Part shown: in pieces, positions 38,717 through 42,587 of the stretch
Layout of the letters: each line of letters starts with the position of its first letter
Position numbering within the stretch: position 1 is the stretch's first letter
Assembly: GCF_036417355.1 (NCBI RefSeq)
Contig: NZ_CP143889.1
Coordinates: 1,674,001-1,738,000, forward strand
Direction: 5' to 3'
Length of the DNA stretch: 64,000 nucleotides
From: Akkermansia sp. RCC_12PD
Lineage (GTDB): Bacteria > Verrucomicrobiota > Verrucomicrobiia > Verrucomicrobiales > Akkermansiaceae
The notes under the pieces: generated by a model
Databases searched by the model: none
What the model saw: only the letters and a program-made list of their open reading frames with translations
What the model was told of the DNA's origin: nothing
Translations under genes and position numbers: made by a program

Positions 38717-39547
38717 TTACAGCGTACGCTTTTGCGGAGGAGTCAGGCTTAGTCTGCCGTCGCTGATGTGGAGGCCCATGCCGCTTTCTTCCACCATGTG
38801 GATGAGGGGCAGGCATGCCTGCAGCAGGTTTTCAAAGGCGGGCAGCAGGAAGATCATATAGCCCTGGGGCACGGACAGGCCGCCGATGGTGCCCCCCACG
38901 TGGATGCCGCCCGGAAGGGTTTTGTCATTGTAGAATTCAAAGCGGGTCTGAACGGCCATGTAGTTGTGCGGATCCATGGACTGGAAGGGAGTCAGGAACA
39001 GGGAAATGGTCTGGCGGGAGTCCACACCCGTATAGCGTTCAATGATGATTTCCATGTAGCCTTCCCCGATGGAGCCGTCAGGCTTTTCCTTGCCGCCATG
39101 CAGGCGCACGCCTACGGCGGGATTGGTGGCGAAGATGGCCAGGGCTCCGTGTTGCTTGGGCTGGAGGGAGGAGGCCAGATAGCGGTTGATGTCTTCCTCC
39201 GAGAAGGAGACGGAGGCGTCCCTCGCTACGGCCTGCTTTACTATTTTGGGAATGTCCGGGGCGTTGTCCTTTTGGCGGAAGCCCGGCAGGGAGCTCGTTT
39301 CCTGAGGTTGCCAGGAGTTGTAAACCAGCCAGGAGATGCCGGCCAGAATGGCGATGGTGAGCAGGAAGATGATGTTGCCGACCAGGGAGAAGGGCGTTTT
39401 TTCCCGCACGGGTTTTTCCGGCACGGCCTGGTCGTCCGGATCGTAGAAGTGTTCCACGATGTTTTCGTGTTCCGGCAGGTCGCGCAGGTTTCTGGTGTCG
39501 GCGGAGTTGTTCCGTTCCGGATCTTCGTTGTCGGATGAGGCGGACAT
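38717..39547 (-). CDS. Single-pass membrane protein of unknown function
   Basis: The 276-residue protein has an acidic N-terminus (MSASSDNEDPERNNSADTRNLRDLPEHENIVEHFYDPDDQ), one helix at about 57-76 (LVGNIIFLLTIAILAGISWLVYNSW) and a periplasmic beta-rich domain (ASVSFSEEDINRYLASSLQPKQ; RLHGGKEKPDGSIGEGYMEIIIERYTG). I recognise no domain. It begins 15 bases after menB, so it is likely co-transcribed with it. Confidence 0.78.
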   Translation of the reverse strand: MSASSDNEDPERNNSADTRNLRDLPEHENIVEHFYDPDDQAVPEKPVREKTPFSLVGNIIFLLTIAILAGISWLVYNSWQPQETSSLPGFRQKDNAPDIPKIVKQAVARDASVSFSEEDINRYLASSLQPKQHGALAIFATNPAVGVRLHGGKEKPDGSIGEGYMEIIIERYTGVDSRQTISLFLTPFQSMDPHNYMAVQTRFEFYNDKTLPGGIHVGGTIGGLSVPQGYMIFLLPAFENLLQACLPLIHMVEESGMGLHISDGRLSLTPPQKRTL

Positions 39548-40741: not shown

Positions 40742-41818
40742 ATGATACATGACCTACTGGTGCGCGGCGTGACGGTGTTTCCCGGCAGCGAACATTTTGA
40801 GTTCGTGCCGGGAATCAATGTAGTGGTAGGCGGCAATGATTCCGGCAAGAGCCATTTGCTGAAGCTGTGCTATACCGTGGCCAGATGGAGTGCGGATGGC
40901 GGCAAGAAGTCCCTGCCGGAAAAATGGGCGGAAGAACAGAGGCTCAGGAAGGACCTGATGCGGGTGTTTGCCGCCCGCGGGCTGGCCGGGCTGACCGCCC
41001 AGAACCGCGGGAATGCGCACGCCCATGTGGAAGCCGGAATGGAAGGGGAGGGTGTGCCGGAGGGGATGGGAAATCTTGTTTTCGATTTCCGGGCGGGGCA
41101 GGAGGAGGAAGGGCTGCATATTCAGGAAATGCCCAAGCGGTTTCTGAATGTTCCCGTCGTGTTTCTGGCGGCGCGGGAGGTGCTGACTATTTATCCTAGC
41201 TTTGTCCAGGTGGGGAGCAGGTTTCCCGAGTTTCTGGACGGGGGAAGCTGGGATCTTTGCCGATATCTGGATGTGGATGCAGGTTCCGTTCCCATCAGCA
41301 CGGATGCAGGCCGCGTGGTGGCCCGGCTGGAGAAGATTATTGGAGGCGGGGTGGTGAAGAGGGACGGCCGGTTTTTTCTGCAAAGGCCGGGGCTTCATCC
41401 CATTGAGATGAGCCTGGTGGCGGAGGGCTTCAAAAGGCTGGGAACGCTGAGCTACCTGATCAGAAACGGTTCCGTGAGGAAAGGGTCCGTCCTGTTCTGG
41501 GATGAACCGGAGATGAATTTAAACGCCTCTCATCTGCCTGTGCTGGTGAAGACCCTGACCGGGCTTGCCAAGACGGGGGTGCAGGTAATTCTTTCCTCCC
41601 ACAGCCTGTTCCTGCTCCGGGAGCTGATGATCCAGCTTTCCGAGTCACGGAATGCCATGGTGCACAGGAAGTTTTTCGGCATGATCGTGCCAAGGGGAGA
41701 CCGTTCCGGCGTACGGGTGACGTGCGGGGATTCCCTGGAGGATGTGGGGCCTATTGAGTCGCTTGAAGCGGAAATCGAACAGGCGGACAGGTATTTGAAG
41801 CTGAGCTATGAGTCATAA
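40742..41818 (+). CDS. AAA ATPase (OLD/RecF-like) of a two-gene cassette
   Basis: The 358-residue protein has Walker A GGNDSGKS at 30-37 and a central variable region (80-240). Next come RLGTLSYLIRNGSV, which looks like the conserved helix before the signature, Walker B SVLFWDEPEMNLN at about 250-260 and VILSSHSLFLL with the switch His. This pattern (DEPEMNL/SSHS) is that of AAA_15/AAA_21 ATPases found in OLD, Gabija-type and other anti-phage or repair systems. Its last 11 bases overlap the downstream nuclease-like gene, so the two proteins are probably made in fixed ratio. Confidence 0.85.
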   Translation: MIHDLLVRGVTVFPGSEHFEFVPGINVVVGGNDSGKSHLLKLCYTVARWSADGGKKSLPEKWAEEQRLRKDLMRVFAARGLAGLTAQNRGNAHAHVEAGMEGEGVPEGMGNLVFDFRAGQEEEGLHIQEMPKRFLNVPVVFLAAREVLTIYPSFVQVGSRFPEFLDGGSWDLCRYLDVDAGSVPISTDAGRVVARLEKIIGGGVVKRDGRFFLQRPGLHPIEMSLVAEGFKRLGTLSYLIRNGSVRKGSVLFWDEPEMNLNASHLPVLVKTLTGLAKTGVQVILSSHSLFLLRELMIQLSESRNAMVHRKFFGMIVPRGDRSGVRVTCGDSLEDVGPIESLEAEIEQADRYLKLSYES

Positions 41819-42587
41819 GCCGTCAGAAGCCCATTACGTGGAGGGAGTCCACCGTTTCTGGATCGATGAGGGCTACGTCGTGTGCCGCATTGAATGTTCC
41901 GGCTATTATGCGCGCCAGGCGCAGAATTTCTGCGGCGGGTGCAAGGAAATGGATTTTCTGCTCTACCATCCGGAGCGCCGGGATTTGTGGCTGATCGAGG
42001 TGAAGGATTACCGCTTTGATGCCCGCCCCAAGGTGGGCGAGCTGGTCTGCGCCCTGAGCCGCAAGGTTAGGGATACCATGTTTCTGCTCAGGGCCGCGTC
42101 CGTGGCCGCACCGGAGGAAGATCCGGCGGAGGGAATTTCCCTGAAGGAATTCGCCGTCCTGGCATCTGGGGCGAAGACGCTCCACCTGGCTTTTCTGCTG
42201 GAAATGGGGATGGGAGGCGTTTGGTCGGACGGGGGTGTGCTGGCCAACGTCAAGAATATGCTGGTTACTTCCATGCGGTTTCTGGACGCCGACCTGATTT
42301 GTGCGCCGATTACGTACCCTTACCGCATCGGCCCATGGCGCGTGACATCCGCCCAGGGAGAGGTGAGCAAGCGCGTGGAAATTCGGAGAGCCCGGAAATT
42401 GGAGGAGATTCAGGCCCAGAGGCGAAGGGCAAGGCAGAAGGCCCTGGAGGAACAGTCTCATTGGGGGGAGGCCCGGGATGTCCGGACGGAGGAAAAAATC
42501 CCGCAATGGAAACAGAGGCTGCGCCAGCGCCTGAATGGAGAGACGGCAAATCACGAAGGACGACGCAGAAAAGGGAAACGGGATTGA
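41808..42587 (+). CDS. Predicted PD-(D/E)XK nuclease of the two-gene cassette
   Basis: The 259-residue protein's N-terminal third holds the elements of a PD-(D/E)XK fold: an acidic helix (SEAHYVEGVHRFWIDEGY), then MDFLLY (Asp49), then LWLIEVKDYR (Glu64-x-Lys66) and a following helix with ARPKVGELVCALSRKVRD. Three cysteines (about 30, 42, 45) sit just before. The C-terminus (about 195-259) is strongly basic (RRARKLEEIQAQRRRARQ; GRRRKGKRD), fitting nucleic-acid binding. I assign a nuclease-like role by motif only. It has no named family to my recognition and is translationally coupled to the ATPase. Confidence 0.72.
   Translation: MSHKPSEAHYVEGVHRFWIDEGYVVCRIECSGYYARQAQNFCGGCKEMDFLLYHPERRDLWLIEVKDYRFDARPKVGELVCALSRKVRDTMFLLRAASVAAPEEDPAEGISLKEFAVLASGAKTLHLAFLLEMGMGGVWSDGGVLANVKNMLVTSMRFLDADLICAPITYPYRIGPWRVTSAQGEVSKRVEIRRARKLEEIQAQRRRARQKALEEQSHWGEARDVRTEEKIPQWKQRLRQRLNGETANHEGRRRKGKRD

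Follow-up and report, generated by a model that had tools for sequence, protein, structure and literature searches.

A HEC-02-type ATPase–nuclease pair, near-core in Akkermansia and passed on vertically, as a probable intrinsic system against mobile elements

Bacteria of the genus Akkermansia carry two adjacent genes, for an ABC-type ATPase and a predicted PD-(D/E)XK nuclease, of a type that PADLOC already lists as HEC-02, a candidate defence system. The window in which the pair was analysed is a stretch of 64,000 nucleotides from the genome of Akkermansia sp. RCC_12PD. What is new here is the near-core, vertically inherited fixation of a HEC-02 pair in one genus, together with a tail of the nuclease that is specific to this clade. 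On balance, we favour the reading that the pair is a sensor-gated nuclease of the HEC-02 type which became fixed in Akkermansia and most likely still acts as an intrinsic system against mobile elements. The locus comprises the following features (positions in the window):

40742..41818, + strand: ABC-type (OLD/Rad50-like head) ATPase, HEC-02 ATPase, 358 aa (from Pfam AAA_21/AAA_15, PADLOC PDLC04146 and the AlphaFold2 model)
41808..41818, + strand: 11-nt overlap of the ATPase and nuclease reading frames (from the sequence; the nuclease ATG is at 41808)
41808..42347, + strand: nuclease residues 1–180, predicted PD-(D/E)XK core with D49, E64 and K66 (from PADLOC PDLC04145, alignment and the AlphaFold2 model)
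42348..42587, + strand: basic C-terminal extension of the nuclease, residues 181–259 and stop codon (from alignment, pI and predicted secondary structure)

The two overlapping genes that an earlier note had placed at 40742–42587 are both present there, as an ORF of 358 aa for the ATPase (40742–41818, + strand) and an ORF of 259 aa for the nuclease (41808–42587, + strand). Translational coupling across the 11-nt overlap is likely; the overlap is identical in two further genomes (G004 and G017), and other Akkermansia have a short overlap or a short gap at this point. Both proteins have been kept throughout the genus at about 45–99% identity and with low dN/dS, which excludes chance ORFs. Neither Rfam elements nor a consensus promoter were found at the locus.

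The ATPase matches the Pfam families AAA_21 (6.2e-17) and AAA_15 (2.1e-9). Its motifs are a Walker A (GGNDSGKS, residues 30–37), an AEG signature (227–229), a Walker B (WDEPEMN, 253–259) and SHS (286–288), and the residues of the Walker A, the AEG signature and the DEP motif are invariant among 27 aligned homologues. AlphaFold2 models of both proteins were calculated from alignments of the window proteins with their GTDB homologues. The ATPase model (pLDDT 87.6, pTM 0.88) aligns best with the heads of SMC, Rad50 and PtuA (Z ~18–21), and matches found with Foldseek have E-values as low as 1.7e-14. There is no Pfam match to a TOPRIM domain in the ATPase, in which the ABC domain is followed by the end of the protein at residue 358. 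The earlier description of an OLD/AAA_15-type ATPase is therefore apt for the ABC-ATPase part, with its AAA_15 and AAA_21 matches, and does not extend to the TOPRIM domain of a true OLD protein, which is absent.

The nuclease contains the motif D49-x14-E64-x-K66, exactly as had been claimed from the sequence, within a predicted core of the PD-(D/E)XK type that spans approximately residues 10–178. None of these three residues varies among 29 Akkermansia homologues and 5 homologues from other phyla, and a wider set (K46, D49, E64, K66, D67, R69, R73, K75 and K86) is invariant across Akkermansia, Bacillota, Methylococcaceae, Holophagae and Mitsuaria. In the AlphaFold2 model (pLDDT 86.6, pTM 0.75), D49 lies just before a strand (50–54), E64 and K66 lie within the strand 59–67, and downstream of K66 there follow a long helix (76–100) and a further strand (124–132). 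Such an order of strands and helices is that expected of PD-(D/E)XK enzymes, and the protein has the (P)D...(D/E)xK motif of this superfamily on its predicted core strands.

Sequence searches with the window nuclease found no match in Pfam and no relative in the PDB. Foldseek alone gave no match to the nuclease model at E<=0.001, and a fold search of BFVD gave nothing significant. Alignment of residues 10–178 with VIA-align returned mostly nucleases of the PD-(D/E)XK fold, with Z-scores of 4–7.1 that are below the level which the tool regards as safe; these partners include CdiA-CT toxins, Can2/Cdn1, FokI, BstEII, BspD6I, McrBC, BsmI and Shedu. Homologues from outside Akkermansia have weak Pfam matches to NERD (0.013), Hjc (0.08) and HSDR_N_2 (0.07), all of which belong to the PD-(D/E)XK fold group. 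The PD-(D/E)XK-like nuclease proposed earlier is supported by the model and by these alignments, at modest Z, and we regard this predicted fold as likely.

The basic tail attributed to the second protein was confirmed: its last 77 residues (183–259) have a pI of 11.4, with 24 K/R and 13 D/E. It is predicted to consist of a long helix (188–226, from the model), followed by a conserved P-x-W-K-x-R block (232–237). Over 60 Akkermansia homologues the pI of the tail is 10.6–12.0, and the tail is found only in the Akkermansia clade, being missing from all of the outside homologues that were aligned. In the A. muciniphila group, the core of the nuclease is tighter (dN/dS 0.01–0.10) than the tail (0.08–0.20). 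A further property of the Akkermansia nucleases is a set of four cysteines, C26, C30, C42 and C45 (window 41883–41942), which are invariant in these proteins and not in the outside homologues; judging by its C-x3-C-x11-C-x2-C spacing, this set could be a zinc site.

The family to which the pair belongs was given by PADLOC. The ATPase matches PDLC04146 (HEC-02B) at 1.7e-66 over positions 1–342 of the 344 in the model, and residues 11–105 of the nuclease match PDLC04145 (HEC-02 nuclease) at 3.1e-16 over positions 6–98 of 170, a coverage that extends over positions 5–154 in other Akkermansia nucleases. As in HEC-02, the genes form an adjacent two-gene operon with the ATPase first, and the gene order is identical in the outside relatives. 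The pair is not embedded in a helicase–methylase–ATPase (Hma) locus, its flanks in the window being menB and ftsH; this context is the source of the name HEC and not a property of the proteins. HEC stands for Hma-embedded candidate, from a guilt-by-embedding survey that is cited in PMC12988326 and PMC11411939; these two papers mention activity of other HECs (HEC-05, which is BrxU, and HEC-06). Pairs of an OLD-ABC ATPase with a PD-(D/E)XK REase, an HNH or a PIN nuclease in place of TOPRIM have also been described, as backup effectors of BREX and of systems based on DUF499 (PMC12839542). Our literature search found no published test of HEC-02 and no paper that names HEC-02 in this sense. The earlier view that the nuclease belongs to no named system thus requires correction in part, as both proteins match a named candidate. 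The suggestion of a defence system is upheld at the level of the family, by the HEC-02 matches and by relatives on plasmids, on viral contigs and in loci of the Hma type, and defence activity itself is plausible.

The Akkermansia pair has in common with HEC-02 both protein families, the order of ATPase and nuclease, and the conserved motifs, but it lies outside Hma loci, is near-core and is inherited vertically. Its nuclease is also about 85 residues longer, with a basic helical tail, and has the four additional invariant cysteines. The dyads of OLD-ABC ATPase and PD-(D/E)XK REase in BREX/DUF499 loci, proposed to be a backup suicidal effector (PMC12839542), are the same type of pairing; however, they are cargo of BREX/BR loci, whereas the Akkermansia pair stands alone among housekeeping genes.

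In PARIS (AriA/AriB), an ABC ATPase sensor also stands beside a small nuclease, and the window ATPase weakly matches the AriA profile; AriB, however, is a tRNA-cutting nuclease of the TOPRIM type, in contrast to the PD-(D/E)XK-like nuclease of the window, and neither Pfam (DUF4435) nor the PADLOC profile for AriB matched the window pair. In Septu (PtuA/PtuB), the ABC head of PtuA is a close structural neighbour of the ATPase (Z 18–19) and gates a nuclease, but PtuB is an HNH nuclease, for which Pfam and PADLOC gave no match in the window pair. Mre11–Rad50/SbcCD likewise joins an ABC head, that of Rad50 aligning to the window ATPase with Z ~18–20, to a nuclease; yet an ATPase of 358 aa has no room for the long coiled coil, and the window nuclease is not a calcineurin-like phosphoesterase. 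The C-terminal TOPRIM fusion of the GajA type, as in OLD/Gabija, is absent from the window ATPase. Thus, PARIS, Septu, Gabija/OLD and SbcCD were ruled out as the identity of the pair, by the type of nuclease or by the architecture. In Hachiman (HamA/HamB), a sensor NTPase is described as restraining a nuclease and freeing it upon DNA damage (PMC12278908), but HamB is a helicase whereas the window ATPase is an ABC ATPase.

Outside the core clade, the arrangement of ATPase followed by nuclease is scattered, and the nuclease has about 166–187 aa and no tail. Single loci of the pair were found in Bacillota, Methylococcaceae, Holophagae, Mitsuaria and several Verrucomicrobiota; in two other families of the latter, 3 of 29 genomes and 1 of 78, respectively, have the nuclease. 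Plasmids of Paracoccus and Pseudanabaena carry the pair as well, and on a Sulfuricystis plasmid a HEC-02-type ATPase adjoins an N-6 DNA methylase. Two viral contigs (L214 and L216) have the full pair, and in a third (L215) the pair is cut by the end of the contig. Relatives are also found on two faecal phage scaffolds, one of which has a weak nuclease match; the viral contigs searched for a relative of the Akkermansia-type nuclease contained none. Two loci have a context of the Hma type, one (L188) adjoining a DUF1156 methylase and the other (L193) a DUF499 ATPase. The ORF for the DUF1156 methylase (L188:592-4818, + strand) includes in-frame stretches that resemble Y1_Tnp, i.e., an IS200/REP transposase. 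Two HEC-02 ATPases (L193:2026-3432, - strand; L194:147-1505, + strand) have N-terminal extensions of about 110–130 aa with no Pfam match, and these are possibly sensor domains.

Within Akkermansia, a search with the nuclease profile was positive in 69 of 76 genomes. Of the 55 good genomes (completeness of 90% or more, contamination of 5% or less), 53 have the nuclease, the two without it being G028 and G031. The ATPase is directly upstream of the nuclease in all of the Akkermansia loci from GTDB (61/61). No match was found in 15 other genomes of the family. The circumstance that the earlier note had set against a defence reading, namely that the pair belongs to the housekeeping core of all relatives, is therefore found in part: the pair is near-core and vertical in Akkermansia, but it is absent from those 15 genomes and patchy elsewhere.

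The divergence of the pair follows that of ftsH. Pairwise distances of the nuclease correlate with those of ftsH with r = 0.966 (mean 0.322 for the nuclease and 0.315 for ftsH), and those of the ATPase do so somewhat less strongly (r = 0.838). In trees of 23 genomes, the nuclease shares 17 of 20 splits with ftsH, as does the ATPase, whereas 0.25 would be expected if the labels were shuffled. For the A. muciniphila group, dN/dS is 0.03–0.07 for the ATPase, 0.05–0.13 for the nuclease and 0.05–0.11 for ftsH, and dS of the pair is comparable with that of its flanking genes or somewhat higher. Distances, trees and dN/dS like those of ftsH imply a long residence of the pair in the genus, with purifying selection acting on it. 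The flank-like dS and the trees congruent with ftsH ruled out that the species of the window acquired the pair horizontally in recent times.

Members of the A. muciniphila group have the pair between menB and ftsH; in other species of the genus it is elsewhere, with mostly different neighbours. A change of neighbours to this extent is ordinary for the genus, where rsfS stays with ftsH everywhere but mutS and menB do not. That the ATPase and the nuclease have stayed adjacent despite such rearrangements speaks for a functional unit. The neighbours in the genus are mostly metabolic and housekeeping genes. PADLOC matches among 86 neighbours were few, those inspected being generic helicases (SNF2/ZorD-like, RecQ/DpdF-like) and one mads_3-like protein, and there was one match to AbiEii. 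A location in a defence island was ruled out by this scarcity of matches, those inspected being mostly to generic helicases. Near the pair, downstream of menB, an ORF at window 38717–39547 (- strand) has no Pfam match, evolves at about twice the rate of ftsH and has a dN/dS of about 0.2.

Two Akkermansia species (G035 and G440) carry an additional pair, HEC-02-like and of the outside type, which is identical in both (a recent transfer):

L068:555-2244, + strand: additional outside-type pair, adjoining an ankyrin-repeat-like ORF
L212:1499-3188, - strand: additional outside-type pair, adjoining an ankyrin-repeat-like ORF

One of these genomes (G440) has the core pair as well. With both a core pair and an outside-type pair, the genus shows a fixed and a mobile version.

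In the model proposed here, the ATPase gates the nuclease, by analogy with PARIS, Septu and Hachiman, in which a sensor NTPase keeps a nuclease in check until it detects infection or damage to DNA. The ABC ATPase would dimerise on ATP, via its Walker A and B motifs and the AEG signature, and would hold or position the nuclease in an inactive complex. On sensing its trigger, which may be a phage protein or another sign of an invading element, such as abnormal ends of DNA or a disturbance of DNA metabolism, the ATPase would free the nuclease to cut nucleic acid, most likely DNA. The history of the pair may have begun with the acquisition of an ancestral mobile cassette at the base of the genus; this cassette would then have gained the basic C-terminal tail, probably raising the binding of nucleic acid, and would since have been passed on vertically as an intrinsic system against mobile elements.

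Because of the HEC-02 family, the purpose with the better support is defence against mobile elements. The gain and loss of defence genes are usually rapid, and near-universal presence, congruence with ftsH, ftsH-like dN/dS and housekeeping neighbours are unusual for defence and fit a domesticated function equally. Given this mode of inheritance, the main rival, domestication for genome maintenance, has to be taken seriously, and we consider it possible but less likely. The pair would have been co-opted in the ancestor of Akkermansia as an end-processing or repair nuclease similar to Rad50–Mre11, and defence would no longer be its main role. The HEC-02 pair would then, on the same tentative footing, have become a core genome-surveillance or repair nuclease with a DNA-binding tail, inherited in the manner of a housekeeping gene. 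The near-core distribution of the nuclease (69/76), ftsH-like divergence with a dN/dS of about 0.03–0.13 and a vertical tree, the housekeeping neighbours and the clade-specific tail accord with such a history. Only 21 of 73 Akkermansia genomes have SbcD (TIGR00619) above the cut-off; it is missing from the A. muciniphila group, including the complete genome of the window (G000), and its absence from these and many others would fit as well. However, the nuclease is found alongside SbcD in 20 of those 21 genomes and also in genomes without SbcD, and this coexistence rules out a simple replacement of SbcCD. RecN is above the cut-off in 67 of 73 genomes, the two good genomes without the pair indicate that it is not strictly essential, and the relatives beyond the genus are mobile and associated with defence, all of which argue against domestication.

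An addiction-like or toxin–antitoxin pair, with a toxic nuclease and an ATPase that neutralises it, would be retained due to addiction and not benefit. The invariable coupling, with frames that overlap or adjoin, is compatible with this, and the PDB names AriA "AriA antitoxin", i.e., in a related system an ABC ATPase can restrain its partner. Nevertheless, the strong purifying selection on both genes over the age of the genus exceeds what addiction requires, and the ATPase retains all of its ATPase motifs, which renders this explanation improbable. Least probable is that the second protein is catalytically dead or has a non-nuclease fold, the pair being structural or regulatory: despite the lack of a significant PDB match by sequence or Foldseek, D49, E64, K66 and K46 are invariant across phyla, the outside homologues weakly match NERD, Hjc and HSDR_N_2, VIA-align over residues 10–178 returned mostly restriction-type nucleases, and the dN/dS of the core is only about 0.01–0.10.

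A pair from a candidate defence family has thus persisted for as long as the genus has existed, evolving at approximately the pace of ftsH, while its relatives remain patchy and mobile. If defence is still the role of the pair, Akkermansia, a major gut commensal, has in it an intrinsic immune gene that may affect both infection by phages and genetic manipulation of these bacteria. If the pair no longer defends, it shows the domestication of a defence module, and domestication at the origin of Akkermansia would make it a defence system whose change into a core function can be dated. Either way, the conserved minimal pair with its tail is a clear place for testing how HEC-02 works.
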